Assembly: GCA_963662155.1 (NCBI GenBank)
Contig: OY759268.1
Location: 1,737,501 to 1,801,500 of the forward strand
Length of the DNA stretch: 64,000 nucleotides
Origin: Lamellibrachia columna
Taxonomy: Eukaryota > Annelida > Polychaeta > Sabellida > Siboglinidae
Reading direction: 5' to 3'
This document shows positions 32,247 to 54,295 of the stretch, in pieces. Each line of letters begins with the position of its first letter. Within the stretch, counting starts at the first letter, position 1. The position numbers and the translations under genes were made by a program. The notes below the pieces were generated by a model. That model was not told where the DNA came from, did no database searches, and saw nothing but the letters and a program-made list of their open reading frames with translations.

Positions 32247-33763
32247 CAGTTGATTAAAGAACGAAGACGAATGTTCTTTACCCCAAAATATATCAACGAA
32301 TTTATTTTACCGAACAAATTGGGACATCGGATAACTACAACTATCCGATATACACCGGCTGTAATTGGCCTATAAGTCTATATTAAATAAGTGTTTCAAC
32401 TTATAAATACAAGGTCTACGTAAATTGTACAAATAAAGTATTTACCCAACTTACGCTACATTGTAGCTCAATTTACCCCACACCAAGTGTTAGTTGAGCC
32501 AGCCTAATAACCCTATTTGAATCAGCTACATATAATTATCTATGCATACTAGATATATTATCTTGGTATAAAATGATCTACTGATAATCATTGTTCATGT
32601 TAGTAAAACAAGTTTGACTCATGAATATGACTGTGCCCTACATATGAAAAAGATTGAAAAATGGCACTGCCACTAACACTGCCTTCCCCTACTGCTGGCA
32701 TTATTCCAGACATTGCACGCGACGGTGCTGTCATCTGGTGAGTGGTACGCTAACTATGAATTTCCATTCCAGAGAGTTCCACGTAGGTGAGGGAGGCCGT
32801 TGTTGAAGTGAAGGAGGAACGTGATGGGTGAGAGGAAGGGGCGGTGTTGAGACGAAGGAGGAACGTGTTGGGTGAGGGGTGGGGTACGGGGTGGATTGTT
32901 GATATTGATCTATTTGATGCACCCGAGGCCATTCTAGGCACATTATTATTATTGTGGCTTCAACTGATTTTGTTTTTCGCCCGGGCATTCACCACGAACG
33001 GGCATTCACCACGAACGGGCATTCACCACGAACGCGGACGACACGTCAAAATGGTGACGCGCAAAACAACAAGTTAACAAAAAGACGAAAAACACAAAAA
33101 AGACGAAAGTTGAACGGAGGAGATCGTCTTCCGCTTTTTATGAGCAATTTCCCGCTTTTTCGAGAGCAGATGTTGAAACCGATCGGGTAAGTATGACTCA
33201 ACTATTGTCCATAATTCTATTACACTCTCGCAGTTTTGTTAATTTGGTGAGTTAATTACAATTCTGTAGCTGTATTGTATTTGGTATGTAAATGTCTTTC
33301 CACAGAAGTAGGTAGAGTCCGGAAATGACGCAATAAGAAGCGCAACTAATTCCGTTGGAAGTACAATTTGATAAATAATTACAGTTTTAGCTAAGATGTC
33401 TAATAGTTGGCAGATATATTGGTGTACATGAATTGAAGATTCACACATTTGAACACACATATCTACTCTTTGATATGTTTCCGCACCATAAAAACAGGCC
33501 ATGCATAATATTGGTAAGTTTATTGACGCTAGAAGTCATAACTTGTACTTTCAGATAAAGATGACAGTAGAGTATATATACAATGTAGGTCCGTCCTCGG
33601 GGTGTTGAAAAGAGGGTTCGAGGGTACATGTATAGGGAGTGTGGAGGGGTGATATGGAAACGTAGGGTGGAGAGTGTAAACGGAGGGTGGAGAGGGGACT
33701 GAATTGGACAGTGACTGAGGGTTGACGAAGGGGGTGGGAGTAGAAGACGGGGGTTGAGGCGGG
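32247..33763. other. Intergenic; possible isolated first exon near 33139-33187
   Basis: No complete gene is seen. A short 17-bp unit (ATTCACCACGAACGGGC) occurs three times at about 32985-33032. An ATG at 33139 opens a short frame ending at a strong donor (GGGTAAGTATG, about 33187), which could be a host first exon, but no continuing exon was found. From 33590 the sequence is purine-rich. Confidence 0.35.
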
Positions 33764-33910
33764 AGAGAAGTTCGTGCCCACATCGACAATTTGCTGAGTC
33801 ACGGAGCAGAAGCAAAAGCGAGTCAACCGACTGTTGTGGTTCAAAGACACGGTCGGACACATGGACGCGATAGACCATAAATAATGGAATACACTACCAG
33901 TGGTCGAATC
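33764..33910 (+). pseudogene. Polinton major capsid gene remnant
   Basis: Translated segments match the intact capsid gene at 58548-59864 in order: RAHIDNLLSHG against RAFVETLLTYG, LWFKDTVGHMDAID against LWYKDKASRMSAVD, and EYTTSGRIVDMMG against EYISGSRVVDMMG. The frame changes between the first two segments, and a stop plus a short deletion lie before the third. It leads without a gap into the 63-bp array and so shows where the array came from. Confidence 0.85.
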
Positions 33911-36165
33911 GTCGACATGATGGGCCGCTGTCACGTGGACCGCTTCTTCCAAGATCGCTACCTGCTCAACCGTGTCGACATGATGGGTCGTTGTCTCGTG
34001 AACCTCTTCCTCCAAGATCGCTACTTGCTCAACCATGTCGACATGATGGGTCACTGTCTCGTGGACCTCTTCTTCCAAGATCGCTACCTGCTCAACCGTG
34101 TCGACATGATGGGTCGTTGTCTCGTGAACCTCTTTCTCCAAGATCGCTACTTGCTCAACCGTGTCGACATGATTGGTCGCTGTCTCATGGACCTCTTCTT
34201 CCAAGATCGCTACTTGCTCAACCGTATCGACATGATGGGTCACTGTCTCATTGACCTCTTCTTCCAAGATCGCTACCTGCTCAACCGTGTCGACATGATG
34301 GGTCGTTGTCTCGTGAACCTCTTCCTCCAAGATCGCTACTTGCTCAACCGTGTCGACATGATGGGTCACTGTCTCATGGACCTCTTCTTCCAAGATCGCT
34401 ACTTCCTCAACCGTGTCGACATGATGGGTCACTGTCTCATGGACCTCTTCTTCCAAGATCGCTACTTGCTCAACCGTGTCGACATGATGGGTCACTGTCT
34501 CATGGACCTCTTCTTCCAAGATCGCTACCGCTGTCTCGTGGACCTCTTCTTCCAAGATCGCTACCTGCTCAACCGTGTCGACATGATTGGTCGTTGTCTC
34601 GTGGACCTCTTCTTCCAAGATCGCTACTTGCTCAACCGTGTCGACATGATGGGTCACTGTCTCATGGACCTCTTCTTCCAAGATCGCTACTTGCTCAACC
34701 GTGTCGACATGATTGGTCGCTGTCTCGTGGACCTCTTCTTCCAAGATCGCTACTTGCTCAACCGTATCGACATGATGGGTCACTGTCTCATTGACCTCTT
34801 CTTCCAAGATCGCTACCTGCTCAACCGTGTCGACATGATGGGTCGTTGTCTCGTGGACCTCTTCCTCCAAGATCGCTACTTGCTCAACCGTGTCGACATG
34901 ATGGGTCACTGTCTCATGGACCTCTTCTTCCAAGATCGCTACCGCTGTCTCATGGACCTCTTCTTCCAAGATCGCTACCTGCTCAACCGTATCGACATGA
35001 TGGGTCACTGTCTCATGGACCTCTTCTTCCAAGATCGTTACTTGCTCAACCGTGTCGACATGATGGGTCACTGTCTCATGGACCTCTTCTTCCAAGATCG
35101 CTACCGCTGTCTCATGGACCTCTTCTTCCAAGATCGCTACTTGCTCAACCGTATCGACATGATGGGTCACTGTCTCATGGACCTCTTATTCCAAGATCGC
35201 TACTTGCTCAACCGTATCGACATGATGGGTCACTGTCTCATGGACCTCTTCTCCCAAGATCGCTACTTGCTCAACCGTGTCGACATGATGGGTCACTGTC
35301 TCATGGACCTCTTCTTCCAAGATCGCTACTTGCTCAACCGTGTCGACATGATTGGTCGCTGTCTCGTTGACCTCTTCTTCCAAGATCGCTACCTGCTCAA
35401 CCGTATCGACATGATGGGTCGTTGTCTCGTGGACCTCTTCTCCCAAGATCGCTACTTGCTCAACCGTGTCGACATGATGGGTCACTGTCTCATGGACCTC
35501 TTCTTCCAAGATCGCTACTTGCTCAACCGTGTCGACATGATTGGTCGCTGTCTCGTTGACCTCTTCTTCCAAGATCGCTACCTGCTCAACCGTATCGACA
35601 TGATGGGTCACTGTCTCATGGACCTCTTCTTCCAAGATCGCTACCGCTGTCTCATGGACCTCTTCTTCCAAGATCGCTACCTGCTCAACCGTGTCGACAT
35701 GATTGGTCGTTGTCTCGTGGACCTCTTCTTCCAAGACCGCTACTTGGTCAACCGTGTCGACATGATGGGTCACTGTCTCATGGACCTCTTCTTCCAAGAT
35801 CGCTACTTGCTCAACCGTGTCGACATGATTGGTCGCTGTCTCGTGGACCTCTTCTTCCAAGATCGCTACTTACTCAACCGTGTCGACATGATGGGTCACT
35901 GTCTCATGGACCTCTTCTTCCAAGATCGCTGCCGCTGTCTCATGGACCTCTTCTTCCAAGATCGCTACTTGCTCAACCGTGTCGATATAATTGGTCGTTG
36001 TCTCGTGGACCTCTTCTTCCAAGATCGTTACTTGCTCAACCGTATCGACATGATGGGTCACTGTCTCATTGACCTCTTCTTCCAAGATCGCTACCTGCTC
36101 AACCGTGTCGACATGATGGGTCGTTGTCTCGTGGACATCTTCCTCCAATATCGCTACCTGCTCAA
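33911..36165 (+). repeat. 63-bp minisatellite derived from a Polinton capsid gene
   Basis: About 36 units starting GTCGACATGATGGGTC. Each encodes a 21-residue repeat in the frame RVDMMGHCLMDLFFQDRYLL. The intact major capsid gene has one such segment, 59082-59144, bounded by GTCGAC at both ends exactly 63 bp apart. Several shortened 36-bp units (RCLMDLFFQDRY) are interspersed at recurring spacing, a higher-order pattern. Both period lengths are multiples of three, so a frame of 802 codons (33884-36292) stays open on the plus strand and long frames stay open antisense. Whether any protein is made is unknown, and I treat it as a repeat. Confidence 0.93.
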
Positions 36166-36423
36166 CCGCGGCGGCCTGGTCCCCAGAGAGCGTCGACCCA
36201 CGGCGTCGTGGTCCTCAGAGACTGTCTACCCACGGCGGCGTGAACCCCAGAGACTGTCTACCCACGGCGGCCTGGTCCCCACAGACTGTTGACCCACGGC
36301 GGCGTGGTTCTCAGAGACTGTCGACCCACGGCGGCGTGGTCCCGAGACTGTCGACCCACGGCGGCGTGGTCCCAGAGACTGTCGGCCCACGGCGGCGTGG
36401 TCCCCAGAGACTGTCGACCCACG
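36166..36423 (+). repeat. 32-bp minisatellite derived from the Polinton protease gene
   Basis: About 8 imperfect units CCACGGCGGCGTGGTCCCCA plus GAGACTGTCGAC. One frame reads HGGVVPRDCRPT, matching FGGVVPKDGLPKT near the N-terminus of the intact protease (59866-60345). The last unit runs directly into the rest of that gene at 36424. Confidence 0.82.
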
Positions 36424-36648
36424 GCTGCTATCGCTAGTAACCTGGCGGCGTTCGTGTGCAACATTCACGCGAGCGATAAAGAGAGTCAACACTGGATCAG
36501 CGTGTACTTGACGAAAGACGGACGTGGAGAATATTTCTATTCATACGACCTACCTCCACAACACGACGAATTCATTAACTTTCTACGTGACAACTGCGCC
36601 TCAGAGCCCGCTGTCTGACGTCTGTCGACGGTATTGCGCCGTGTAATT
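36424..36648 (+). pseudogene. Adenain-like protease fragment of a decayed Polinton
   Basis: Segments reading AAFVCNIHAS, QHWISVYLTKDGRGEYFYSY, DLPPQHDEF and, after a frame change near 36610, SDVCRRYCAV follow the intact protease in order. The catalytic His context (HW) and the Cys-box (VC..YC) are present, but the frame break and missing C-terminal third make it non-functional. Capsid and then protease order equals that of the intact element. The capsid 3' half and its stop are missing between the two arrays. Confidence 0.88.
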
Positions 36649-37309
36649 GTTGCGTTGTACTGTCTTGGAAACCAATACAATTGTCGACACCACTTGTTTA
36701 ATCTGATATCAATTATTTTATTCATAAACCAAAGAGGAGGTGACAAATACATGACTTGTGCAGACCACGTAATAGTTTAATATCCTAATATGTTTTGTTT
36801 TCAAAGCGTTGTATTTGATTTAATACAATGTAATACAATGAAAGCATCATTTGTTTTTCTACAAAGCCCAGTATGCGTCTTAATACAATGTAACACAATG
36901 TAGTAAGGTCTTTATAAAGTTGTATACTATACGCTGCCTACTTGTCGTGACACACCCGAGCTACACAACACGGCTTAGAGTCGACCCACCCACGACCGAC
37001 CAACCGACACGTCATGTAATCTGGCACGTGCCCGTCACAACATACGGAAGGGAACCACTCCGACATGTTTTAAAAATAATGTTCCAACTTACCCTGGGCA
37101 ACACAATCGTCTAGCGATTTGGCAGCGATGGCCAAATAAAAGGAATCTTTGTCCATCTTGCATAACAATAATAACTGATACAGGGGGCGCTCTATGTAGA
37201 AATATAAAAATTCGTTTCGTAATTTAGCATCACTGTAAACAGAATATCCAATTTGGATTGGGAGACCGTATCAAAAGATACTTTTAGAATTTGCCGTCTG
37301 GTACAGAGA
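36649..37309. other. Intergenic between two Polinton gene relics
   Basis: AT-rich sequence. Short near-duplicate stretches (TTAATACAATGTAATACAAT) occur near 36815-36900. No gene recognised. Confidence 0.5.
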
Positions 37310-37555
37310 TTGCGATATTTGGTCGAGCTGCCTGAATCGATGACTGTTTATACCCCGGGCAGCTGCTCTGTCGTTACAGAAATAAATGTTCGACGTTGAT
37401 TACAACCGGAGTTGTCTAGCAGCTTGATGGTGTCTGCTGTGGTGGCTTTGTCCGAAGACACGTCGCCTTCGGTGAGTGTCTCGCGTACATCCGGGACACT
37501 CATCTTGAACCACGGCATAGGTTCGTGCTCTACCACTTGGTGGATGTGCGATACA
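37310..37555 (-). pseudogene. Polinton DNA polymerase B fragment, motif B side
   Basis: The minus strand reads IHQVVEHEPMPWFK, then SDKATTADTIKLLDNSG, and further weakly similar sequence. It corresponds to the segment of the intact polymerase around 52645-52800 that holds polymerase motif B (KLLGNSGYG). The Tyr-Gly of the motif is lost. Together with 38086-38430 it is one polymerase relic split by a minisatellite. Confidence 0.87.
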
Positions 37556-38085
37556 ATTAAAATAGGAGGCAACCAGGGTACGGTGGGAAGTTGTTAAAAT
37601 AGGAGGCAACGAGGGTACGGTGGGAAGTTGTTAAAATAGGAGGCAACGAGGGTACGGTGGGAAGTTGTTAAAATAGGAGGCAACGAGGGTACGGTGGGAA
37701 GTTGTTAAAATAGGAGGCAACGAGGGTACGGTGGGAAGTTGTTAAAATAGGAGGCAACGAGGGTACGGTGGGAAGTTGTTAAAATAGGAGGCAACGAGGG
37801 TACGGTGGGAAGTTGTTAAAATGGGAGGCAAGCAGGGTACGGTGGGAAGTTGTTAACATAGGAGGCAACCAGGGTACGGTCGGAAGTTGTTAACATAGGA
37901 GGCAACCAGGGTACGGTGGGAAGTTGTTAAAATGGGAGGCAACCAGGGTACGGTGGGAAGTTGTTAAAATAGGAGGCAACCAGGGTACGGTGGGAAGTTG
38001 TTAAAATAGAAGGCAACCAGGGTACGGTGGGAAGTTGTTAAAATGGGAGGCAACCAGGGTACGGTGGGAAGTTGTTAAAATACCG
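37556..38085 (-). repeat. 37-bp minisatellite inside a polymerase B relic
   Basis: About 14 units TTAAAATAGGAGGCAACGAG plus GGTACGGTGGGAAGTTG. On the minus strand the unit reads HRTLVASYFN in one frame, close to RRMLVGSYYG at the collinear place of the intact polymerase (about 52549-52578). The array thus appears to have grown from that codon block. The 37-bp period destroys the frame. Confidence 0.8.
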
Positions 38086-38430
38086 GGATCTTCTGTCAAC
38101 GCACGAATAAGATCACCGATATCGGAACGAGTTATGGCGGTGTTTTGAATACCGGTTGCATTTCGTCAAAATAGTCTTTCAAATGGGCCTGAACCGTAAC
38201 GTCGCATTCTACCAAACAAGCGACCCTTTTAAGTGGCGGCCAACATGTCATCTTGGGTCGTTTCCCTTTTGAAAAAAACGATAAGTATATTTTGATCTTA
38301 GAAATTCTTTCACTTCTGAATTTACTTTTATTGTCTTCCACTGACATTCCCACATTTTGACAACGTTAGTGGCAAAAGTACTCCGTGTTCGATCTTGTTT
38401 CTCCACGTTTGTTTTCAGATACATCAAATA
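38086..38430 (-). pseudogene. Polinton DNA polymerase B fragment, upstream part
   Basis: The minus strand carries NVVKMWECQW, then VECDVTVQAHLKDYFDEMQP followed by VFK, and after a frame change TRSDIGDLIRALTED. These align with VELWECEW, IECDISVPEELRDHFAEMQP and VREDLGPFMRRYAEE of the intact polymerase. A short deletion removes the middle. Orientation is opposite to the capsid and protease relic on its left, so this locus is either two elements or one rearranged element. Confidence 0.88.
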
Positions 38431-39210: not shown

Positions 39211-42200
39211 CTAACAAGAGACTATGTACCAGCAGGGGAGACTTACGCATTCCGATCTATGGAGAGACTATGTACCAGCAGGGGAGACTTACGCACTCTG
39301 ATCTATGGAGAGACTATGTACCAGCAGGAGAGACTTACACACACCGATCTATGGAGAGACTATGTACCAAAAGGGGAGACTTACACACTCCGATCTATGG
39401 AGAGACTTTGTACCAGCAGGGGAGACTTACGCACTCTGATCTATGGAGAGACTATTTACCAGCAGGGGAGACTTACACACACCGATCTATGGAGAGACTA
39501 TGTACCAGCAGGAGAGACTTACACACTCCGATCTATGGAGAGACTATGTACCAGCAGGGGAGACTTACACACTCCGATCTATGGAGAGACTATGTACCAG
39601 CAGGGGAGACTTACACACTCCGATCTATGGAGAGACTATGTACCAGCAGGGGAGACTTACGCACTCTGATCTATGGAGAGACTATGTACCAGCAGGGAAG
39701 ACTTACACACTCCGATCTATGGAAAGACTATGTACCAGAAGGGGAGACTTACGCACTCCGATCTATGGAGAGACTATGTACCAGCAGGGAAGACTTACAC
39801 ACTCCGATCTATGGAAAGACTATGTACCAGCAGGGGAGACTTACGCACTCCGATCTATGGAGAGACTATGTACCAGCAGGAGAGACTTACACACACCGAT
39901 CTATGGAGAGACTATGTACCAGCAGGGGAGACTTACACACTCCGATCTATGGAGAGACTATGTACCAGCAGGGGAGACTTACGCACTCCGATCTATGGAG
40001 ATACTATGTACCAGCAGGGGAGACTTACACACTCTGATCTATGGAGAGACTATGTACCAGCAGGGGAGACTTACACACTCCGATCTATGGAGAGACTAAG
40101 TACCAGCAGGGGAGACACTCCGATCTATGGAGAGACTATGTACCAGCAGGGGAGACTTACACACTCCGATCTATGGAGAGGCTATGTACCAGCACGGGCG
40201 ACTTACACACTCCGATCTATGGAGAGACTATGTACCAGCAGGGAAGACTTACACACACACCGATCTATGGAGAGACTATGTACCAGCAGGGGAGACTTAC
40301 ACACTCCGATCTATGGAGAGACTATGTACCAGCAGGGGCGACTTACACACTCCGATCTATGGAGAGACTATGTACCAGCAGGGGAGACTTACGCACTCCG
40401 ATCTATGGAGAGACTATGTACCAAAAGGGGAGACTTACACACTCCGATCTATGGAGAGACTTTGTACCAGCAGGGGAGACTTACGCACTCTGATCTATGG
40501 AGAGACTATGTACCAGCAGGGGAGACTTACACACACCGATCTATGGAGAGACTATGTACCAGCAGGAGAGACTTACACACTCCGATCTATGGAGAGACTA
40601 TGTACCAGCAGGGGCGACTTACACACTCCGATCTATGGAGAGACTATGTACCAGCAGGGGAGACTTACGCACTCCGATCTATGGAGAGACTATGTACCAG
40701 CAGGGGAGACTTACACACTCCGATCTATGGAGAGACTATGTACCAGCAGGGGAGACTTACGCACTCCGATCTATGGAGAGACTATGTACCAGCAGGGGAG
40801 ACTTACACACTCCGATCTATAGAGAGACTATGTACCAGCAGGGGAGACTTACACACACTCCGATCTATGGAGAGACTATGTACCAGCAGGGGAGACTTAC
40901 GCACTCTGATCTATGGAGAGACTATGTACCAGCAGGGGAGACTTACACACACCGATCTATGGAGAGACTATGTACCAGCAGGAGAGACTTACACACTCCG
41001 ATCTATGGAGAGACTATGTACCAGCAGGGGCGACTTACACACTCCGATCTATGGAGAGACTATGTACCAGCAGGGGAGACTTACGCACTCCGATCTATGG
41101 AGAGACTATGTACCAGCAGGGGAGACTTACACACTCCGATCTATGGAGAGACTATGTACCAGCAGGGGAGACTTACGCACTCCGATCTATGGAGAGACTA
41201 TGTACCAGCAGGGGAGACTTACACACTCCGATCTATAGAGAGACTATGTACCAGCAGGGGAGACTTACACACACTCCGATCTATGGAGAGACTATGTACC
41301 AGCAGGGGAGACTTACACACACCGATCTATGGAGAGACTATGTACCAAAAGGGGAGACTTACACACTCCGATCTATGGAGAGACTTTGTACCAGCAGGGG
41401 AGACTTACGCACTCTGATCTATGGAGAGACTATGTACCAGCAGGGGAGACTTACACACACCGATCTATGGAGAGACTATGTACCAGCAGGAGAGACTTAC
41501 ACACTCCGATCTATGGAGAGACTATGTACCAGCAGGGGAGACTTACACACTCCGATCTATGGAGAGACTATGTACCAGCAGGGGAGACTTACACACTCCG
41601 ATCTATGGAGAGACTATGTACCAGCAGGGGAGACTTACGCACTCTGATCTATGGAGAGACTATGTACCAGCAGGAAAGACTTACACACTCCGATCTATGG
41701 AGAGAGACCATGTACCAGCAGGGGAGACTTACGCACTCCGATCTATGGAGAGACTATGTACCAGCAGGAGAGACTTACACACACCGATCTATGGAGAGAC
41801 TATGTACCAGCAGGGGAGACTTACACACTCCGATCTATGGAGAGACTATGTACCAGCAGGGGAGACTTACGCACTCCGATCTATGGAGATACTATGTACC
41901 AGCAGGGGAGACTTACACACTCTGATCTATGGAGAGACTATGTACCAGCAGGGGAGACTTACACACTCCGATCTATGGAGAGACTAAGTACCAGCAGGGG
42001 AGACACTCCGATCTATGGAGAGACTATGTACCAGCAGGGGAGACTTACACACTCCGATCTATGGAGAGACTATGTACCAGCAGGGGCGACTTACACACTC
42101 CGATCTATGGAGAGACTATGTACCAGCAGGGAAGACTTACACACACACCGATCTATGGAGAGACTATGTACCAGCAGGGGAGACTTACACACTCCGATCT

Positions 42201-42525
42201 ATGGAGAGACTATGTACCAGCAGGGGCGACTTACACACTCCGATCTATGGAGAGACTATGTACCAGCAGGGGAGACTTACGCACTCCGATCTATGGAGAG
42301 ACTATGTACCAGCAGGGGAGATTACACACTCCGATCTATGGAGATACTATGTACCAGCAGGGGAGACTTACGCACTCCGATCTATGGAGAGACTATGTAC
42401 CAGCAGGGGAGACTTACACACTCCGATCTATAGAGAGACTATGTACCAGCAGGGGAGACTTACACACACCGATCTATGGAGAGACTATGTACCAGCAGGG
42501 AAGACTTACGCACTCCGATCTATTT
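39211..42525. repeat. 46-bp minisatellite, about 72 copies, with higher-order duplications
   Basis: The unit is TCTATGGAGAGACTATGTAC plus CAGCAGGGGAGACTTACACACTCCGA in two parts. Variant units recur at long range: the rare ACTAAGTACCAGCAGG variant is at about 40096 and again about 41984, some 1,888 bp (41 units) apart, and other blocks repeat at about 416 bp. Many overlapping open frames of 100-520 codons are artefacts of a unit lacking stops in its three plus-strand frames. Confidence 0.95.
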
Positions 42526-43135
42526 CGCTCCAATGAGCTGTGTGGAGGTTGTAGTTGGAAGCGAGAATATGAAACAAGCGCCACAAACCGCGCACCGAAC
42601 TACAGCACAAGACGCCTGGGAACTGTCCTGGCCCAGAGATAACTTCTCGTGGTCCATGTTCAATGTCCCCATCACTGTCACGACACATGACGGGAGTCTG
42701 TATGTATTTATTCATTACGGTTTTAGGACGTCTATATATGTACCTGTGTACGCTACAATAAATAAATAAATGTGCGCAAGTGATTTGTGTAACGATGACA
42801 TCCACCAAGCCGGGGCATTGGGACGTACGGACACATGTGTGAGTACGTTACAATAAATAAATGTACATGTGACTTCTTGCATGTGGAAACAAGGAGCCCT
42901 GGTGTAACGATGACATCCACCAAGCCGGGGCATTGGGACGTACGGACACATGTGTGAGTACGTTACAATAAATAAATGTACATGTGACTTCTTGCATGTG
43001 GAAACAAGGAGCCCTGGTGTAACGATGACATCCACCAAGCCGGGGCATTGGGACGTACTGACACATGTGTGAGTACGTTACAATAAATAAATGTACATGT
43101 GACTTCTTGCATGTGGAAACAAGGACATTGGGACG
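42526..43135. repeat. Dispersed family C, copy 2, with 115-bp units
   Basis: TTCGCTCCAATGAGCTGTGT then TTGGAAGCGAG matches copy 1 at 11330-11370. Three units with AACGATGACATCCACCAAGC follow at 115-bp spacing (about 42792, 42907, 43022). Confidence 0.9.
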
Positions 43136-43470: not shown

Positions 43471-43600
43471 AGTAGTACCTTATAGCTTTTCAATCCTCAC
43501 TTTTATCACAACTTCATCCGGTTGCGCGCGCAGCCGGATGTACATAGCGCCATCTAGCGATTGACGCGCTGCACACGTGCACGCGTGCGTGCACGCAGCC
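43471..43600 (+). repeat. Polinton left terminal inverted repeat
   Basis: The first about 95 bp match the reverse complement of the right end with very few differences and then decay in a CACGCGTGCG-rich stretch. It contains a 24-bp near-palindrome at 43516-43539 with GCGCGC at its centre. The right end has one extra AGT at its tip. Confidence 0.9.
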
Positions 43601-44626
<1,026 letters not shown>

Positions 44627-45500
44627 TCAGTATGGTGCAAAGCGCACGCAAAGCGGCTTGCCGCGACGACCTCGACGACGCCAAATTTGTAATGGCGGTC
44701 GCTGAATCGGAGCCGGGGCGGTGGCGTCGTCGTTGTCGTCGTCGTCGTCGGTCACCCAACCCTCTTGTTCCAGCACTTTCGGATCGCCCTCGACCAGCCA
44801 AAGCTCCTCATCCATCACTTTATTGTAGCATTCGGTGCTCTTATAGGCAAACTTTAGTGTGAGTTCCTTCATGACAGCCGGCCAGAGAGATCGCGCATGC
44901 ATTAGTTGGATAATTCCCGCCAACGAGGATGGTCGCAGCAGCCATGTCCGCTCCAGCTCCTTCTTTTTTTCCAGCATTTCTTTGCAGTACTTCTTGATGG
45001 CGCGTTGGAGACTCACTTCCTTCAACTCTCTCATTACGGCACACCATCGGTGACAGTGAGCGCTGCGAGAAAACAAAAAAAAAGATATATAGTCGAATAA
45101 AACAACACATCATTATAGACTAAAAAAATAAACTTACTGAAGACAGAACTCTGCAACTCCTCTCTTAAAGTTTTGCAACGACAAAGTATTGAATACAAGA
45201 AAAAACAACATATCATTATAGACTAGAAATAAACTCACCGAAGATCGGTCTGCGTATCGAATCTCTTAAAGTTTTGCAACGACAAAGTATTGAATACAAG
45301 AAAAAAAAACATATCATTATAGACTAGAAATAAACTCACCGAAGATCGGTCTGTGCGTCGCATTTCTCTTGCAGTACACGACGCAAGATCTTTACGTCCG
45401 CCACGAAACATTTCATATATTGGTACGCTAGCGCCATAATACCGACGATCACGGATAGGATTGCTGCGACAGATCGAGGAATTAAAATGTATGACGGCAT
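44627..45500 (-). CDS. Spliced membrane-anchored protein of unknown function
   Basis: A two-exon minus-strand model. Exon 1 runs from an ATG at 45500 to 45340 and ends at a GTGAGT donor. Exon 2 starts at 45062 after a good acceptor (TTTGTTTTCTCGCAG) and ends at 44627. Phases match, giving about 198 residues. The N-terminus has a hydrophobic segment (about residues 10-28, AAILSVIVGIMALAY), probably a signal anchor. The middle is Lys/Glu-rich helical, and an Asp run (DDDDD) precedes a basic tail. A TATA-like sequence lies 35-45 bp upstream. About 100 bp around the exon 1 donor is duplicated inside the intron (45131-45340), producing candidate extra small exons. No family is recognised. It is divergently transcribed from the NADAR gene. 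Confidence 0.55.
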
Positions 45501-45533
45501 GTTGACGATGATGACGAGAACACGACGGGAGTG

Positions 45534-45544
45534 GTATATATAGG
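45534..45544. promoter_or_regulatory. TATA-like box of a divergent promoter
   Basis: GGTATATATAGG lies between the minus-strand gene (start 45500) and the NADAR gene (start 45681). It is nearly symmetrical and so could serve either strand. The distance fits the minus-strand gene best. Confidence 0.5.
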
Positions 45545-45680
45545 GGAAATATTGTTGACGAGAATGTGACGGGAGTTCTATCTATAGACCTGACAGATAA
45601 GACCGTCTGGCGAACGGACAAAAAATCGAGGTGACAGCACTCGTTTATGTAACGCAGTGAATGCGTGTTTTAACACAAGT

Positions 45681-46172
45681 ATGGATCGTCCAGTTCGTTT
45701 TAAAGGTTCTAATAATTATTTGTCCAATTTTTATGCGTGTAGAATACGCGTATGGGGTAGACAATTGTATACAGTCGAAAGCGCTTACCAGTGGAAGAAA
45801 TGCATGCACAACAACGATCGAGACACGGCGGAAAAGATGGCAGCAACACGCACGGGACTGCAGGCTAAACGTCTGAGCAAGAACATTCGTGAGAAGGCTC
45901 ATTTACGAGAGAGCTGGAACACGCAACGCCGTTCCGTGATGTATGCTCTAGTAGCTGTGAAATTTCGTGATCGATACTTACGGAAACGCCTGTTAAGCAC
46001 GGGAGAGAGACAATTGACGGAATGGGTGAGAAGTACAGAGGGTTTTTGGGGTGCTTTAACCTACGATGGTCGAAGGGGTCAGAATACGCTCGGGGAGTTA
46101 CTTATGCAACTAAGAAAGTTCATTCGAATTCACCAGCAGGTAAAAAATGGGTCTGATGTAACGCGGATGTGA
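45681..46172 (+). CDS. NADAR (YbiA-like) domain protein
   Basis: About 163 residues, essentially one domain. Family hallmarks in order are FKGSNNYLSNFY near the N-terminus, YTVESAYQWKK, an AKRLSK segment, WNTQRRSVMYALVAVKF, LLSTGERQLTEW, GFWG and NTLGELLMQLR. NADAR domains act on ADP-ribose-type substrates, and some members have been shown to remove ADP-ribose from guanine in nucleic acid. In a virus-like element this could counter host NAD or ADP-ribosylation defences, which is inference. I chose the ATG at 45681 because the frame upstream starts only with GTG and the domain begins six residues later. It lies just upstream of the SSB gene. The assignment to the family is firm; the substrate is unknown. 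Confidence 0.87.
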   Translation: MDRPVRFKGSNNYLSNFYACRIRVWGRQLYTVESAYQWKKCMHNNDRDTAEKMAATRTGLQAKRLSKNIREKAHLRESWNTQRRSVMYALVAVKFRDRYLRKRLLSTGERQLTEWVRSTEGFWGALTYDGRRGQNTLGELLMQLRKFIRIHQQVKNGSDVTRM

Positions 46173-46338
46173 GATTGCAACCAGGCATCGGGAAAACATC
46201 ACGCGACTTGCAACCCGATTCCAGCATCACGCGCTGTTTTGCAATAGCAAAAACACCAGAACCAGTCCGAACTCGTTTGTACTGGTGAAAGCATCACGCG
46301 TTGCGTCGCAATAGCGTTGTCAACAGCTGGTAAGGGCC

Positions 46339-46346
46339 TATATAAA
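46339..46346 (+). promoter_or_regulatory. TATA box upstream of the SSB gene
   Basis: TATATAAA lies 64 bp before the ATG at 46410, in the run GGGCCTATATAAACACAGC. Position and sequence are typical of the Polinton genes in this element. Confidence 0.7.
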
Positions 46347-46409
46347 CACAGCAGCAGCGCTAGCCCAGTTATCACAATTGTCTTCAAGCGATTCTACTCG
46401 ACTTCAAAG

Positions 46410-46871
46410 ATGACTGCCTCAAACCCGATCTGCGTCGATATGACTTTGACGAAGTTACAATGCGAGGTAAGCGGTGGTCGGTATGTGTTTGCGCAGCCTT
46501 TAACAGTAGTGACCCTCGGTGTTCAAAATAAATACGTGTTTTACAGGGCTTGCACTAAATGTCCCAAACGACTCACCAACCACGTCTGCACAGTGCACGG
46601 CTACCAGCGTGAGCACGTGAACAGATTCGCTCTGCGCGTACTGCTGTCAGACAGTATCGGGTGTGAGTGTTGGTGTACTTGTTTTGACGCAAATGCCGTC
46701 AAAATTCTAGGTTTCACAGCAAACGATTACGTGCTGATGGACATGGACGAACAACGTTACGAGTCGATGTCGACACTGCGAGGTAGTCAGGTCACGGTTG
46801 TCATCAGGAAGCGCGTGACCGGAGAGTATGTAAACTACATTGCGGAGGAGATTAATATCATAAATATGTAA
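46410..46871 (+). CDS. RPA70 C-terminal-like single-strand DNA-binding protein
   Basis: 153 residues. A zinc-ribbon pattern (YRACTKCPKRL, then NHVCTVHG) sits inside what looks like the OB-fold of the large RPA subunit's C-terminal domain. It is followed by FALRVLLSDSIGCECWCTCF, a KILGFTANDYVLM helix and a final VIRKRVTGEYVNYIAEEI strand region. RPA70-C binds single-stranded DNA and holds the trimer together. Here it would most simply protect displaced strands during protein-primed replication. The start is the first ATG after the TATA box. A strong donor (GAG|GTAAGC) after codon 19 means the rest of this ORF can also be spliced out as an intron (46468-46883). The domain assignment rests on motif spacing and should be tested by profile search. 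Confidence 0.65.
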   Translation: MTASNPICVDMTLTKLQCEVSGGRYVFAQPLTVVTLGVQNKYVFYRACTKCPKRLTNHVCTVHGYQREHVNRFALRVLLSDSIGCECWCTCFDANAVKILGFTANDYVLMDMDEQRYESMSTLRGSQVTVVIRKRVTGEYVNYIAEEINIINM

Positions 46872-46883
46872 CTTTGTTGACAG

Positions 46884-47375
46884 AACGAAGCTGCAACCAC
46901 TGTCGTCGATGCGCCCGCCACCGCTGTCGACGGAAACAAAAAGGTGAGAAAGTGGTTAGAGAATAATAGTTGTAACGATTTATTCTCAACAGACGACGAC
47001 GATAAGACGGAGGAGGGGGACAGATCCGTTGTAGTAAGCAGCGGTGGTAGCGGCGGCAGCGACGACAGCGATAGCTGTATGGAAATGGTGCGTCGAATAG
47101 ACGGAATAGCCAATCGCGCCGAAAGTATGTATAACGAACAACAATTTAACCTGACTGTAGAGAAAGCCGCTGCGGAATACGCGTGCGCTGAGATGGCTCG
47201 TATAGCGAATTTAGATTCAGAGAGCGATATGCCTTCAGACAGCACGATCTTGCATGTCGTGAGTTGGATGGGTATAGAAGTAATGTCAACGTGTAATAGT
47301 ATACAGTGGCGACACCGAGTGAAAGATAAGGTGAGAGAGCTTTTAATTGAACAATACGGTTCATATATGTACTAA
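46884..47375 (+). CDS. Alternative middle exon(s), acidic unknown protein
   Basis: The open stretch begins after TTGTTGACAG and reads NEAATTVVDAPATAV, then a Ser/Gly/Asp-rich acidic segment and a helical part with AAAEYACAEMARIANL. It contains two donors of the same type, AAG|GTGAGA, after 46941 and 47330, both in phase 0. If read through, it stops at 47373-47375, about 20 nt before the next acceptor. It could be joined behind the first 19 codons of the SSB gene, also in phase 0, or be used from an internal start. No domain recognised. Confidence 0.45.
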   Translation, partial: NEAATTVVDAPATAVDGNKKVRKWLENNSCNDLFSTDDDDKTEEGDRSVVVSSGGSGGSDDSDSCMEMVRRIDGIANRAESMYNEQQFNLTVEKAAAEYACAEMARIANLDSESDMPSDSTILHVVSWMGIEVMSTCNSIQWRHRVKDKVRELLIEQYGSYMY

Positions 47376-47394
47376 TCTTTTTTCTATTCAATAG

Positions 47395-48030
47395 AGTGGT
47401 TTGCAGCGCATCAAAGACGCGTACAAGAGGACGGCATCGAGCGACGACGACGAAACCGTCTTTGCAACACCGAAGTGGATTGCGCCGCTGACGAAGAGAT
47501 CGCGCATGCGAATGACGGCGTGCAAGTCGTGCGAGACGAGCGGTGACGCGGACAATATGGAGGCCTTCGCGAGACCGGCTGTGAAAGTGCCAGCAATCAC
47601 CCAACCCGGAGATAAAGGCCCGATCGATGACGTGAGTCCTATAGAGAACTTCGAGAGATCGACGACTTCATCACCTTCATCGCCACAGCCGGAGGGATGT
47701 CCTCTAACCCCACCGGAAGACGATGGTTCCGACTCGACGGATGACGAGATGCCGGTATTGTTCGTTCTACCAGACACCACCGTTATTGTGTCACCGCACG
47801 ATACCCCGGCTGTGTTTAAGCCACGTACGCCAAACGAGGACATGACGCAGGAGGTCTGCGATGTCATCCTCGAAGAGGTGATAGGTCGTAAGATCACGCT
47901 CGAACGTCAAAACAGTCGTTTGTCACTCGAGAGGGCAACTCACAACGTGTGCCAGGACGTAGCCGTCACTATAACATCGACGGATTGGCAGAAGGGAGTT
48001 CGCCGACACCTTCAGTTGGAATCGAAATGA
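47395..48030 (+). CDS. Last exon of the alternatively spliced unit; disordered acidic protein
   Basis: Opens in phase 0 after TTCTATTCAATAG at 47394 and runs about 211 codons to a TGA at 48028-48030. The product is rich in Ser, Pro, Asp and Glu (for example TTSSPSSPQPEGCP and PPEDDGSDSTDDE), with a possible basic segment (PLTKRSRMRM) near residue 30 that could be a nuclear signal. It has no ATG near its start, which supports use as a spliced exon. Such disordered acidic proteins near the early end of midsize DNA viruses often have regulatory roles, but here this is only inference. No LxCxE motif was found. Confidence 0.5.
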   Translation, partial: SGLQRIKDAYKRTASSDDDETVFATPKWIAPLTKRSRMRMTACKSCETSGDADNMEAFARPAVKVPAITQPGDKGPIDDVSPIENFERSTTSSPSSPQPEGCPLTPPEDDGSDSTDDEMPVLFVLPDTTVIVSPHDTPAVFKPRTPNEDMTQEVCDVILEEVIGRKITLERQNSRLSLERATHNVCQDVAVTITSTDWQKGVRRHLQLESK

Positions 48031-48047
48031 ACATTGAACACAACCGC

Positions 48048-48270
48048 TGTAGAAACGAACATTATAACCGTTGTAGAAATATAACCGTTGTAGAAACGAA
48101 CTTTGTAGAAACGAACATTATAACCGTTGTAGAAACGAACATTATAACCGTTGTAGAAACGAACATTATAACCGTTGTAGAAACGAACATTATAACCGTT
48201 GTAGAAACGAACATTATAACCGTTGTAGAAACGAACATTATAACCGTTGTAGAAACGTACTTTGTAGAAA
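48048..48270. repeat. 24-bp tandem repeat, about 8 copies
   Basis: GAACATTATAACCGTTGTAG plus AAAC repeats exactly six times, with shortened units at both ends. It lies just behind the stop of the previous gene, so it may be in its 3' untranslated region. A polyadenylation-like AATAAA is at about 48563. Confidence 0.92.
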
Positions 48271-48629
48271 CTAACATTGAATATAACCGTTTCTGTAGAA
48301 ATGAAAATTCGTGAATATATTGTTTTTTGTTATGTTGATATATATATACATCTCTGCGAAAAAGACTTATAATCATCAACATTACCTAACCTCTGTCGTG
48401 GTTAACAGCCCACAAGTTATTCATATACTAGCCGCTGCCGTATCGATAACAGATCGTAAGCTAGGGGTCACTGTCGAGATCATAAAGATCCATAAACCCA
48501 GCATTATCATCATCATCATCATCTATAAGTCGAATCGTATATGTATGACATTATTACAACATAATAAAAAATGAAACAAAATATGATGCGTGTTGTCGTT
48601 GTAGAAATTCTTCGTAGATTCTTTATCAC

Positions 48630-49150
48630 CCCTCGTAAAGAATTATATATATAGCGCGAGCTGTCATTCCTCTTTATCGTAAAGAAACCTCCGAAGGAAT
48701 TATGTTTAACGAAAGGAACTCGCAGTTCGTTCGATATCGCCTTCTTGTGAGTCGCCTCCTCAATAAATGACTGTATTAAACCGTTTCCGTTTCACGAAAG
48801 TGCAATATTCGCCTTAACTCCCTGCGAAATGTACCGCTTGTTTTCCCAAAGTAATTCTGAACAACATACCCGCTTTGTGTCGATGTAGCATTCACGTTTG
48901 AGGTCGCCACCGTACGGTGTCGTTTACATAACGAATATCCATCCATCAGGCGTCGCCACCGTACGGTCTTGATATCGTTTGTTCATCCGTTTGAGGTCGC
49001 CACCGTACGGTCTTGGTGTCGTTTGCATAACGAATGTCCATCCATCCATCAGACGTCGCCACCGTACGGTCTTGGTGCCGTTTGCATAACGAACGCTCTC
49101 TCGAATATTTAATAAATAACGAACGGTTCTGAACCGTATATATGTTATAA
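48630..49150 (+). promoter_or_regulatory. Polymerase upstream region with four ACCGTACGGT palindromes
   Basis: The perfect 10-bp palindrome ACCGTACGGT occurs at 48909, 48958, 49002 and 49061, each preceded by GTCGCC. The surrounding 50-60 bp (CGTTTGCATAACGAATGTCC) is also repeated, so the palindromes sit in an imperfect tandem array. A TATATATG-like box follows at about 49137, some 55 bp before the polymerase ATG. A symmetric repeated site next to a core promoter suggests binding of a dimeric protein or an origin-related site. Both are inference. Confidence 0.5.
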
Positions 49151-49192
49151 CGAGAGTCAATGTATGTCAGTTGTAGATACGTCGTTGGTATC

Positions 49193-52100
49193 ATGAAACG
49201 TCATCTATGTCGTCACTGTGGACTCGCGCTCGAATCGTATGTGGCGCTACGAAACCACTTAGAGAGTCACCCGTCTGAGAACGAACATTCTTATTCGATA
49301 GCGCCCTCTGGTGTTCGTTTAGAAGACCCCTCTCAAGACGATCGTGCGAAGAAAACAAAATTCTCGTGTAAATGCGAAGCGACGTTTGAAAGATGGAACG
49401 ATCTGCGACATCACGTAAGAACAACATGTCGTCTTAAAAAAAGAAAGAAAGACCAAGACATTCACGTGTGCCGAATGCGGAAAGAATTTTGTCAGACGTG
49501 ACTATTTGAGCAAACACGTGTGCGCACCAACACAACCACCATCACCACCACCACTACCATCTCATCACCCGCTAGTCACCGACGAAGACCCCGTTGATCC
49601 ACCCGAGCGTCTTCCCTTCCCAGACGCTCTGTCGACGAACTTGTTTGACGTCGTTCGAGAGCACTGGTCCTCCATAAGAACATGCGTGGCGAGAGGTCCT
49701 CTCCAGAGTAGGTACAATTACAGATTAACGACGCTAGACACGACCGTTCTAGAAGCACCGTTGAGGAACGTGTTCCAAGAACAGACCACCGCCTTCAAGA
49801 TTAACCTCAGTTACGCATTCGTGTTGAGGAACAAGAACACGGATCGATACAGGTATTATCACGCGTCTTGTAACTGTTGTTGACGGTACCTGGACGAACC
49901 CAGTCTCATAGCCAACAGCAAGGACTTTGACGAGTTTCTGGAACGAATCCGAGAAGCCGACGTCTTGCAATGGGCCATCAATCAAAGACCTGATTCCGCG
50001 TGGGTGTGCGAGCTCGTGACAAACGCCACTTTTTTCGTCAATCGCATCATCGATCATCCGATAGGATGCGTGGGAATGATACCCCTTCCGGTCTACATTA
50101 AGAAGAACAAAGCAGTCGTCGGATTGGAAGTGGACCCCAACCACGGCAGACGGTACGGAGATAACCTGTGTCTCTTTCGATGTCTGGCTCTGCAACGAGG
50201 ATGCGACGTACGTCGGTTGAAACCAGCTGTGAAGACGCTGTACGAGACGTATGCTCAAGACGATGTACCCATGGAGAAATTTGCCGGAGTCTCGGTGAAA
50301 GACCTCTATCGTGTCGAGACCACGTTCCAGACGAACGTGTGCGTGTACAGTCTCGTAAAACCGAACGAGAACGACGACGAACGACCAACCGCCGAACTCA
50401 TCCGTCGATCGATCTGTAAATACCCTACCACGCTCTACCTCAACCTTCACGAGACGCATTTCTCTTTCATCAGCGATGTACGCATGTACTGTCACTCGTA
50501 CAGATGTCGAACATGCAACTCGTTGTGGAAACGCACATGGAACCTACGCGTACACGAGAGTACGTGTACGGGTTCTGTACGTCGAGTCTTTCCCGGAGGC
50601 GTGTACCATTACACACCGTCGATATTCGAACGACTGGACGACGAGAACATCCGAGTGAACGAGTCGTTGCGGTACTACCCGTACAGAGCCACTTTTGATT
50701 TCGAATGTTGGTTCGACACCGAACACCTTCCCTCCAACAGCGAGGTTCGATGGATCGCGCGTCACGTTCCACTGAGCGTCAGCGTGGCCTCAAACGTACC
50801 GGGACACGAACGAGTGACATGTCTCGTCACGAACGGAGACTCCAACAAGTTGATGATCGACATGATGACCATTCTGATATCGATGAGCAACGCCGCGTAC
50901 GACTGCATCAAAGACTCGTACGAGAACGTGATGGACCAGCTCGCTGAAAAATTGACGCGATGGGACGAGCAAGAGGAGACTACGAGAGCGGCCAACGACA
51001 AGAAAAGTCGACGTCGACGTACAAAAAATCCATACAAAAAGCTGATGTGGCAACTGTATGGATGGATGCGTCAGTTACCCGTCATCGGGTTCAATTCGGG
51101 TCAGTACGATCTCAATGTCGTCAAACAGTTCCTCGTGCCCTACTTCCTGGCCGTTGCAAAGACAGAGGAGGGGGAAGAGAGACGACAAGAGGGAGAAGAA
51201 GAAGAAGAAGAAGAGAGCGGATCGTTTTTCATCATCAAGCGCAACAACGCTTTCATGTGTCTTTCGACGGATCAGTTGAAATTCCTAGACATGACCAACT
51301 ACCTAGCTCCCGGATTCAGTTATGCCAAGTATCTGAAAGCGTACGGATGTGAGGTGACGAAAAGTAATTTACCGTACGAGTACATGGATCGGCTGGAGAA
51401 GCTCGACGATACCGTTCTACCTCCGAAAGAGGCCTTCTTCAGTCGACTGAAGAACGAAGGTATTTCCGACGAGGACTACGTCAGTTGTCAGGAGGCGTGG
51501 CGCGACAACGGTATGTCGACGTTGCGCGACTTTCTCGTATGGTATAACAACAGGGACGTGGTTCCCTTTCTGCAGGCCGTCGACCGACAGTTTGACTTCT
51601 ATCAGCAGCGTGGAATAGACATGTTCAAGCAAGGCATCAGTGTACCGGGTCTGACCTTGCTGTACCTGTTCAACGACCTTCCCGAGAAGACCTACTTTAC
51701 CATCTTCAACGAGAAACACAAAGATCTGCACGATCTCGTCAAAGACAACATTTGCGGTGGTCCTTCGATCATATTTCATCGCTATCACGAGAAAGGGGTC
51801 ACCACGCTACGTCAGAACGAGCACGGAGAGGCGTCTCATCCGTGTCGATCGATCGTCGGATACGACGCGAACGCGCTGTACCTATGGTCGCTCATGCAAG
51901 ACATGCCCATGGGATGGTACACGCGACGACGCTTTGAGAACGACTTCCGACCCGAATCGGCTCAGCTGTACGGACAGATGGCTTCGGAATGGCTGACGTG
52001 GGAATCCGAACGTACGGGACTTTCCATACGACATCAGACCAACGGACGAGAGAAACGGATAGGTAAACATCGAGTGGATGGCTGGTGCAGCGAGACGAAG

Positions 52101-53594
52101 ACGGCTTATCAGTTCCAAGGGTGCTTTTTCCACGGTTGCTCGTGCACTCAAGTGGAGGTCAATTCCGTCAACGGGAAAACCATGACCGAACTGCTCGTCG
52201 AGACCCGAAAGACCACCGCCTACCTACGTCACTTCGTCAAGGTTGTCGAACTGTGGGAATGCGAGTGGAAAAAGATGAGACGAGATCCGCACGTAAAACG
52301 GTGTCTGGACGCCGCGTTTCCACGACGACGTCGACGCGTTCAGTGGACGATGACTCAGCAACAGATCCTGAGCGGCGTGCGTGACGGAACCGTGTTCGGC
52401 ATGATCGAGTGCGACATTAGTGTGCCTGAAGAACTGCGCGATCACTTTGCCGAGATGCAGCCCGTGTTCAAGAACATCAGTCTGGTACGCGAGGATCTCG
52501 GTCCGTTCATGCGTCGATACGCCGAAGAGCACAACATCATGACGACTCCGAGACGCATGCTCGTGGGCAGTTATTACGGCGATAAGATACTGCTCGCTAC
52601 GCCTCTGTTGCGATGGTATCTGGACCACGGACTCGAGGTGTTACACGTCTATCAGGTCGTCGAATACGATCCGATTCCGTGCTTCCGTCGATTCGGCGAT
52701 GCCGTGTCCGAGGCCAGACGCGCGGGAGACGTTCACAGCGACAAGGCCATCATCGCGGACACCATGAAGTTGCTGGGAAACTCGGGCTACGGAAAAACCA
52801 TCACCAACGTGGACCGACATCGCGACGTCAACTACTGCACGGAGAAGGCGGCGTCGCGCCTGGTCAACAATCGGCGATTCCGACAACTCGACGTCGTCGT
52901 CGACGACGCGTACGAGATAGAGATGAGCAAGAGAACAGTGACGTATGCCTTGCCTATACACGTGGGATTCTTCGTTCTGCAGTACGCCAAGATGCGCATG
53001 CTGCAGTTCTATTACGACTTCATCGACAGATACGTGGAGCGTCCTCTGTTCCAATACTGCGAGATGGATACGGATAGTGCCTATTTGGCCTTGGCCGCCG
53101 AGTCAGTCGATGCCCTCGTGACCCCTGCACTACGAGAACATTATTTTCGACATCGATCCGAATGGCTCCCGTCGGAATGTTGCGACGCGCATCGGGACGA
53201 GTACGTGCGCTGTCGACTCGCCGACAGACAGTGGGTCGGAGGCGAAGAGTGCTGCAAGATGCGACGAGTGTTCGACAAGAGAACTCCGGGACTGTTCAAG
53301 GTGGAATGGTCGGGCGACGGGTTCGTGGGTTTGTGTAGCAAGACGTACTATTGTTTCGGATCCACCGACAAGTACAGCACCAAAGGTCTGAGCAAACGAC
53401 ACAACACCATCGACAAGGAGACGTTCCTGGAAGTGCTCACCAGTCGTCGGAGCGGAAGCGGAAAGAACCGCGGGTTTCGGGTGTATAAATCGGCCATGAT
53501 GACGTACGTGCAGGAACGAGCGGCTCTCACCTACTTCTACGCCAAACGCGTGGTGCACGAGGACGGTTTGAGCACGGGTCCGACGGACGTGTAG
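49193..53594 (+). CDS. POLB: Protein-primed DNA polymerase B, with N-terminal frameshift and in-frame UGA
   Basis: About 1,465 codons overall. The N-terminus has C2H2-like zinc fingers (CRHCGLAL near the ATG, and FTCAECGKNF at 49461). A DNLCLFRCLAL segment of OTU-like appearance follows near 50161. The 3'-5' exonuclease shows FDFECWF (50697) and GFNSGQYDLN. The palm has motif A YDANALYLW (51861), motif B KLLGNSGYG (52767) and motif C MDTDSAY (53064). Polintons copy their linear genome by protein priming with this enzyme. The reading frame shifts by one base in an A-run between about 49425 and 49455, and a TGA interrupts it at 49881-49883. From 49884 on it is fully open, so the exonuclease and polymerase domains are intact. 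Either error or real damage could explain the breaks. Confidence 0.93.
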
Positions 53595-53632
53595 ATAAGA
53601 CGACGCGGTTCGACGGTCTGTCATAACGGACC

Positions 53633-54259
53633 ATGGATGCGCGATGGAAACACCCCTTCACGTGCATCATCGCTGGACCGACGGGATGTGGCAAGAGTAC
53701 TTTCGTGACGCGTATGTTGCGTCACGCCGCTGCGATGATCGATCCGCCACCCGAACAAATAACGTGGTGTTACGGAGAATGGCAAGAGGCTTACGCAACG
53801 ATGGACTTGAGTCACGTGCGATTCGAGGAAGGGTTACCGACGGCAGCCATGTTCGATCCGACAACCAGGAACCTCATCGTCATAGACGATCTCATGGCAG
53901 AAACGGACGAACGGGTCACGACCTTGTTCACTAAAAAAAGCCACCACAGGAACACGTCCGTGCTGTATCTCGTGCAGAACCTGTTCCCTAAAAACAAAGA
54001 GAGTCGCACCATCAGTCTGAATTCGCAGTACATGGTGGTGTTCAAGAATCCACGTGACGCATCGCAGATGACGACCTTGGCTCGACAGATGTATCCGGGT
54101 CGCGGTAAGTTCGTGCAAGAGGCGTTTAAAGACGCCACGGCGATACCGTACGGGTATCTATTGGTCGATCTCAAACAGGACACGCCCGAGGACATGCGTC
54201 TGCGCACGGCCATCTTTCCAGACGACGACGTGCAGTACGTGTACTTACCGAAGGTATAA
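53633..54259 (+). CDS. ATP: Packaging ATPase (FtsK/HerA-like)
   Basis: 208 residues. The Walker A motif GPTGCGKSTF is at residues 15-24, and Walker B, a hydrophobic strand ending in IDD (NLIVIDDLM), at about residues 82-90. An Asn/Gln-rich sensor-like VQNLFPKN follows. The family drives genome packaging into capsids in PRD1/adenovirus-related elements, and its length is normal for Polintons. The gene begins 38 bp after the polymerase stop on the same strand. The 3' end contains the TATA box of the next gene. A truncated second copy lies inverted at the window end. Confidence 0.94.
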   Translation: MDARWKHPFTCIIAGPTGCGKSTFVTRMLRHAAAMIDPPPEQITWCYGEWQEAYATMDLSHVRFEEGLPTAAMFDPTTRNLIVIDDLMAETDERVTTLFTKKSHHRNTSVLYLVQNLFPKNKESRTISLNSQYMVVFKNPRDASQMTTLARQMYPGRGKFVQEAFKDATAIPYGYLLVDLKQDTPEDMRLRTAIFPDDDVQYVYLPKV

Positions 54260-54262: not shown

Positions 54263-54295
54263 ACCGGACGCGTGGATAGTCTCTTCATTCGCACC

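Follow-up and report, generated by a model that had tools for sequence, protein, structure and literature searches.

The first step in the formation of a minisatellite is hard to study, as the unexpanded ancestor is usually missing. A 64,000-nucleotide window of the Lamellibrachia columna genome (C8:1737501-1801500; C8 is a 59-Mb contig in an assembly of 880 Mb and 30 contigs) raises the question of how this step occurs within the coding DNA of a transposon. At positions 33911-36168 of the forward strand, the window contains an array of 63-bp units that encode a segment of the Polinton major capsid protein (VDMMG..LLN). A prior interpretation made without database searches (the sequence-only reading) had taken this array for a satellite, generated from a capsid gene by slippage or unequal exchange between two GTCGAC words. 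Here we consider where the unit came from, in what form its relatives survive, and whether the long open reading frame that crosses the array is a gene.

The array unit is a conserved capsid segment

The array has 33 register starts, corresponding to 28 registers of 63 bp (the last one 62 bp) and five of 99 bp. Each 99-bp register consists of a 63-bp unit and a 36-bp partial copy, giving a total of 38 full or partial units, close to the "about 36" originally counted. The unit consensus, VDMMGRCLMDLFFQDRYLLNR, scored 70, 79, and 81 against three capsid proteins, far above the best of 2000 shuffles run against each (45, 42, and 42), and the proposed capsid origin of the unit is thereby upheld. 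In an alignment of 121 capsid proteins (the best 120 of 2767 matches plus the window protein) the segment forms a conserved block, with Val-Asp at both ends, 21 residues apart, in 69 of the 121. The term satellite, by comparison, is not appropriate. Classical satellite DNA consists of very long arrays, and because this array is 2.3 kb long and occurs at a handful of loci, we refer to it as a minisatellite; the arrays of this unit span 0.1-2.3 kb at five C8 loci, with genome counts being lower bounds. The order of the units did not support a simple higher-order period: values at lags 2, 4, and 8 exceeded those for shuffled order (P = 0.008, 0.016, and 0.048, respectively), and lag 1 fell below the shuffled mean.

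The suggestion that the first unit is the most capsid-like proved only partly correct. Among the window units, the His of the capsid family (HVD) is retained by unit 1 alone, and this unit has the top protein identity to the capsid protein P0066 (17/21), though against the capsid protein P0057 and the intact capsid gene described below it is level with other units. DNA identity to the intact gene instead favours the last unit (45/63, compared with 44/63 for the units at 34100 and 34829 and 42/63 for unit 1), and a weakly resolved tree of the units rooted on that gene likewise places the last unit, not unit 1, at the base.

The array lies within a dead Polinton of a second lineage

The array sits inside a frame-broken block, positions 33764-38364, in which capsid, protease, and DNA polymerase B homology occur together, identifying the block as a Polinton/Maverick remnant. 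Upstream of the amplified segment, 33764-33910 (forward strand) is a frame-shifted piece of the major capsid gene that contains a stop codon and leads into unit 1, as recognized by tblastn with P0066 and P0057 and by translation. In searches of the first 44.9 kb, the broken frames of this flank (33776-33910) matched P0057 with an E value of 1e-11 and P0066 with 2e-14, in alignments that extend on into the array, while the flank by itself gave 1e-6 in a 4-kb search space. Where P0066 reads ..LLSHGAEAK..DYTTGSRIVDMMERLHVDLFFQDRYLLNGVD.., the remnant reads RAHIDNLLSHGAEAKAS..EYTTSGRI-VDMMGRCHVDRFFQDRYLLNR-VD. Unexpanded capsid sequence thus does precede the first unit, as had been proposed, though in broken frames. 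Downstream of the array are remnants of the protease gene (36448-36691, forward strand; tblastn E 1e-19) and of the polymerase B gene on the reverse strand, with the 3' part of the gene at 36941-37556 (tblastn E 7e-47) and a part from further upstream in the gene at 38083-38364 (tblastn). We rejected a local inversion as the source of the polymerase orientation, as a copy on contig C12 has the same order, with capsid and protease on one strand and the polymerase facing them.

The homologous 63-bp segment also occurs as a single copy, at 59082-59144 on the forward strand, within an intact capsid gene at 58548-59864. GTCGAC flanks it on both sides, exactly 63 bp apart, just as first reported. 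This gene, however, is not the array's parent: its segment is about 72% identical in DNA sequence to the best array units, and it was dismissed as direct parent because P0066 and P0057 fit better. These comparisons point to a second Polinton lineage, that of P0066 and P0057, as the parent, and place the intact gene in another lineage. The closest named proteins to the intact gene, among the best 120 of 2767 matches, are from Lamellibrachia satsuma, Ridgeia piscesae, and an Escarpia laminata symbiont bin. Polinton genes turn up in bacterial symbiont bins (L001; P0028, P0149, and P0173), from the Escarpia laminata symbiont and mussel Thiodubiliella, probably through host contamination. No relative was found in viral contigs, whether these were scanned with the capsid protein, with the pattern of the unit, or with the alignment of capsids. 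A scan of genome contigs returned one contig of a mussel symbiont, whose capsid gene is distant (45% identical) and in which a motif scan for the segment found nothing.

The intact gene belongs to an apparently complete Polinton at 43471-60890, which has terminal inverted repeats of about 115 bp that are 95% identical and start AGTAGTACC. Its frames specify a NADAR-domain protein (45657-46172), a Rep_fac-A_C domain protein (46317-46871), the capsid protein, an ATPase-like protein, an integrase, and a polymerase. Positions 60894-64000 are an inverted partial copy of the same element (60894-63734 matches 59573-56723 at 99.4%, and 63733-64000 matches 53996-53729 at 100%, with the integrase region skipped), which may be either a real rearrangement or an assembly effect.

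Related copies carry from one to 33 units, and short repeats bracket the single-unit copies on C8

The genome was searched with the flank and first units as query, returning 58 matches; scoring covered 40 of 46 candidates, such that counts are lower bounds. We fetched 11 places on C8 and nine on other contigs; the places outside this set, one at 51.36 Mb of C8 and 18 elsewhere in the genome, are nearly all matches of about one unit. With the window included, the segment was present in 10 of 12 C8 places and not found in two. Unit number varied widely among these copies: 33 (as registers) in the window, 23 at 12.250 Mb and 11 at 0.852 Mb (the last unit being truncated in both), nine at 0.685 Mb, two at 12.364 Mb, and one each at 11.747, 12.360, 12.243, and 8.849 Mb. 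The copy at 12.674 Mb (L016) contains one unit together with a 27-bp tail of a lost unit, indicating that at least one of the single-unit copies arose by contraction.

All five single-unit C8 copies, the contracted array included, have GTCGAC on either side of the segment, exactly 63 bp apart. When all 70 distances from 30 to 99 were compared, the repeat at 63 was longer than that at any other distance in four of these copies; in L016 this repeat is 18 bp long, lengthened by the tail of the lost unit, and in L018 one other distance equals or beats 63. Each of the nine places fetched from other contigs has one segment match. In the seven of these in which the segment could be located by pattern, the bracket is exact in two, has one or two mismatches in three, and has lost one or both words in two. 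Intact brackets of other lineages (the intact gene, L021, and L029) are unexpanded. For the 63-bp unit, therefore, both the unexpanded state and a pair of short direct repeats spaced exactly one period apart are at hand, and the copies with two, nine, 11, 23, and 33 units bear out the proposal that a capsid segment lying between two GTCGAC words became a tandem array. At their truncated ends the 11- and 23-unit arrays pass into capsid sequence from further downstream, and these ends have the look of deletions that came later.

Two other explanations of the array can be weighed against these copies. Capture of a pre-existing satellite by an element has been proposed for some MITEs, and tandem arrays are very common here: 23 of them, counting those with a period of at least 10, at least 3 copies, and a length of at least 100 bp, take up 25% of the window, one lying in the intact Polinton and three in the 4.7-kb remnant. 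The 63-bp unit, however, is itself conserved capsid sequence, is preceded by the proper upstream capsid sequence, and in unexpanded copies is single and followed by the proper downstream capsid sequence, which leaves capture with next to no probability. Similarly, assemblies are error-prone at tandem arrays, and the array lengths given here are taken from the assembly, yet the five C8 loci differ in their counts, in their locus-private variants, and in their ends; we consider it highly improbable that the array or its length is an artefact. Two other arrays of the window, of 111 bp at 11430-11983 and of 115 bp at 42787-43125, are listed in the repeat table with consensus units of visible similarity and represent the same family at two places.

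The C8 copies arose by duplication after the element had been truncated

The C8 copies have about 1 kb of sequence in common outside the element, and the window stretch 32300-33300 matches seven other C8 places over nearly its full length at 83-89%. The sharing of sequence beyond the element indicates that the copies are segmental duplications and that the remnant had been truncated before it was duplicated. On a larger scale, the C8 regions 0.6-1.8 Mb and 8.8-12.7 Mb form a segmental duplication with at least eight long copies, the window among them, each with a piece of dead Polinton. A 46-bp array that adjoins the remnant (39217-42523) recurs by pattern at other C8 copies (15 copies in L014, 10 in L046, and three in L012) and is thus part of the duplicated block; it had no match among the Polinton proteins compared with it. 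A purine-rich degenerate repeat (33580-33760) immediately precedes the capsid remnant, within the stretch common to the C8 copies, and in look resembles arrays at 12536, 24568, and 28431.

The capsid flanks on C8 are broken. The window and seven of eight translated C8 copies (all but L016) have a stop codon upstream of their first unit, in the frame of the units, and single-unit copies have the same kind of broken flank as array copies.

The arrays themselves differ by locus. When variants were scored in the first 51 bases of units and required to be seen at least twice, the window had eight that occur nowhere else, the 0.685/0.852 Mb pair and the 12.250 Mb copy had three each, and the two-unit copy had one. 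Compound units differ as well, being 99 bp long in the window and 105 bp at 12.250 Mb. By 160-bp flank identity to the window, a single-unit copy (L014) is closest at 98%, with L010, L011, and L015 at 97%, whereas over longer upstream stretches L012-L015 are each about 90-91% identical. The C8 copies are thus mosaic, and they fit more than one order of events. L014 joins the His of the window's unit 1 with the Phe of the last unit of the nine-unit copy, a mix that would be expected of either an ancestor or a collapsed array, and L014 could be the latter. The private variants and compound units fit separate amplification histories, which need not have been separate births: the expansions at GTCGAC may have arisen independently, or may go back to a single birth after which the arrays diverged. 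A tentative possibility, to which we give somewhat less credence than to its opposite, is that the same bracket was used more than once on C8, with the window, the nine- and 11-unit pair, the 23-unit copy, and the two-unit copy being parallel births from separate single-unit copies, beside arrays from other segments of the dead element. At the second capsid site, described below, one segment has indeed given rise to arrays more than once (63 bp on C8, 49 bp on C13).

Other segments of the remnant have also formed arrays

Immediately downstream of the 63-bp array, positions 36169-36425 (forward strand) are a 32-bp array with eight copies by pattern, whose unit is the N-terminal protease segment GGVVPRDCRP. 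The array reads GGVVPRDCRPT where the protease has GGVVPKDGLPKT, and its peptide scored 37 against the window protease, compared with 32 for the best of 2000 shuffles. This array, with five to 11 copies, was found in 10 of 10 C8 protease copies that match the whole query (one fetched piece ends just past the array), a requirement that favours copies with the array, as three weaker C8 protease matches (70-73%) begin beyond it. It was absent just upstream of the protease in six copies fetched from other contigs. Its presence in all ten C8 copies and absence from the six elsewhere suggest that the 32-bp array probably predates the 63-bp expansions.

Between the two polymerase pieces, at 37557-38082 on the reverse strand, is a 37-bp array whose unit is the polymerase segment TTSHRTLVASYF, standing at the place of polymerase TTPRRMLVGSYY. 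Since two of 5000 shuffles reached the score of this peptide, its position carries much of the claim to polymerase origin. Among the matches of a genome search the window copy alone is an array: all seven array matches fell in the window, and six single matches fell elsewhere. The unit is single in all three fetched homologues, and in one of them TATTTT occurs exactly 37 bp apart.

A third array of this kind has a period of 63 bp but a quite different sequence, and derives from the capsid segment CFIDNDTYNGAYDKNP. A pattern search counted 26 units in the copy at 0.68 Mb, where one more spans the boundary between two pieces; there are 18 at 0.85 Mb, six at 12.250 Mb, seven at 12.364 Mb, five at 8.85 Mb (two places), and one in each of three further copies. 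This unit is absent from the window's remnant. On contig C13, an array with a 49-bp period and no fewer than 6.7 units (L025 1-327, C13:26723400-26723726), which runs to the end of the fetched piece, derives from the same capsid segment; because its period and place differ from those of the C8 array, it represents an independent birth from this second capsid site. Six unexpanded homologues of the 32-bp unit showed no bracket, and none was found at 63 bp for the second capsid site in six sequences scanned, one of which (L025) is itself an array there. Short direct repeats, then, may not explain every array.

The second capsid-site unit also bears on when expansion took place. The 63-bp unit of the window array shares the reading frame of the capsid segment and has a period divisible by three, as it would had the capsid gene expanded while the element was still active and the array once been a variant of the viral protein. 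Against this, the motif occurs twice, by pattern, in none of 120 capsid proteins (once in 112 and not at all in eight; these are the best 120 of 2767 matches), and the C8 flanks are broken, including those of single-unit copies. Moreover, the second capsid-site unit contains an in-frame TAA, indicating that this expansion came after gene death. Expansion in an active element is consequently very unlikely.

We are confident in an origin account in which a dead Polinton was duplicated within C8, a capsid stretch expanded at its GTCGAC bracket, and similar events occurred at other sites. A Polinton/Maverick element of the host genome first died and was truncated, as the frameshifts and stops in the capsid flank of the copies attest, and the stretch bearing the remnant was then copied several times within C8 by segmental duplication, as the approximately 1 kb shared outside the element shows. 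In some copies the 63-bp stretch bounded by GTCGAC was then probably duplicated by slipped replication or unequal exchange, a step to which the exact bracket points; the sequence fits either process. From two units on, unequal exchange would lengthen, shorten, and reshuffle the array, a process consistent with the locus-specific variants, the truncated ends, and the compound units, which measure 99 bp in the window and 105 bp in the 23-unit copy. Similar events took place elsewhere in the remnant, in the protease (32 bp), the polymerase (37 bp), and the second capsid site (63 bp, and separately 49 bp on another contig).

The 802-codon frame is very probably not a gene

An open frame of 802 codons does exist at 33884-36292 (forward strand), and the sequence-only reading had considered a repeat protein of capsid fragments conceivable. 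In keeping with a real gene maintained by selection, the sense frame runs without a stop over 752 array codons, and the spacings between window units are all multiples of three. Changes between units, however, show no excess of synonymous substitutions. There are 26 distinct changes, of which 18 are non-synonymous, eight are synonymous, and none is a stop, compared with a neutral expectation (transitions weighted 2) of about 76%, 21%, and 2%, respectively; the probability of eight or more synonymous changes is 0.18 and that of no stop is 0.53. One frame of the opposite strand has only two stops and an open run of 425 codons. Nor is the frame conserved across copies: the 23-unit copy has an in-frame TGA and has ACT at the place of the window's ATG, the upstream stop noted above falls in the frame of the units both in the window and in seven of eight translated C8 copies, and the ATG at 33884 itself stands within the broken capsid flank. 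Among the other arrays, periods of 32 and 37 bp mean that a reading frame cannot be kept, and the second capsid-site unit has its stop. The frame matched none of 7997 candidate proteins scored at an E value of 0.001, a result weakened by length limits and by the repetitiveness of the frame. An apparent Pfam match to LydB (E 1e-16) was discarded as the product of repeated weak matches, with no single stretch passing alone. A repeat-protein gene is thus highly doubtful; we judge the array to have no evident function and the open frame to be a by-product of a stop-free unit.

Comparison with known systems

Having one-, two-, and many-unit versions on one contig makes the short-direct-repeat model of minisatellite birth testable on actual sequences from before and after expansion. 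The copies also allow a comparison of what follows, namely the formation of compound units, the truncation of ends, and contraction. In the model of Haber and Louis 1998 (described in PMC3389668 and cited in PMC6947457), as excerpted, a minisatellite arises by duplication between flanking direct repeats of 5-10 bp through slippage or unequal crossing-over. The 63-bp bracket fits this model closely, with a unique segment, a bracket of 6-bp direct repeats, and a period equal to the distance between them. What sets the present case apart from those in the excerpt is that single- and multi-unit paralogues occur on one contig, where the step is visible. A second model, slipped-strand mispairing at non-contiguous repeats (Taylor and Breden 2000, described in PMC3389668), predicts in its excerpted form that the terminal unit is truncated. 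Truncated units do close the arrays of 11 and 23 units, but these ends continue into downstream capsid sequence.

Satellites derived from transposon coding regions are documented in the excerpted text of a review (PMC9659126), including LINE-1 ORF2 (PROsat), CR1 ORF2 (HinfI), a gag-related rye satellite, and CACTA transposase. The source of the unit is likewise a transposon coding region here, although several genes of one element have each made an array: capsid, protease, and polymerase regions of Polintons can all seed tandem repeats. A term search found neither Polinton nor Maverick in the text of that review. Literature on Polinton/Maverick repeats and on satellite and minisatellite origins yielded no capsid-derived array among the matches listed, as far as their excerpts go, and a search on Polintons in tubeworms found no paper. 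A review of "transposon graveyards" (PMC12628747) describes, in the excerpt, remnants of dead elements recycled into tandem repeats, a setting like the one found here; its hypothesis concerns composite monomers, whereas here each unit comes from one gene. The nearest published case in the excerpts is CgiSat52 of the Pacific oyster, a 1656-bp satellite listed as DNA/Polinton (PMC8268682). It too is a tandem repeat with Polinton similarity, but it has a long monomer, and the excerpted text calls non-Helitron similarities fragmentary and states no capsid origin. The array is therefore of a known kind, a minisatellite of the Haber-Louis type from transposon coding DNA, and what is new is the before-and-after series and the Polinton source.
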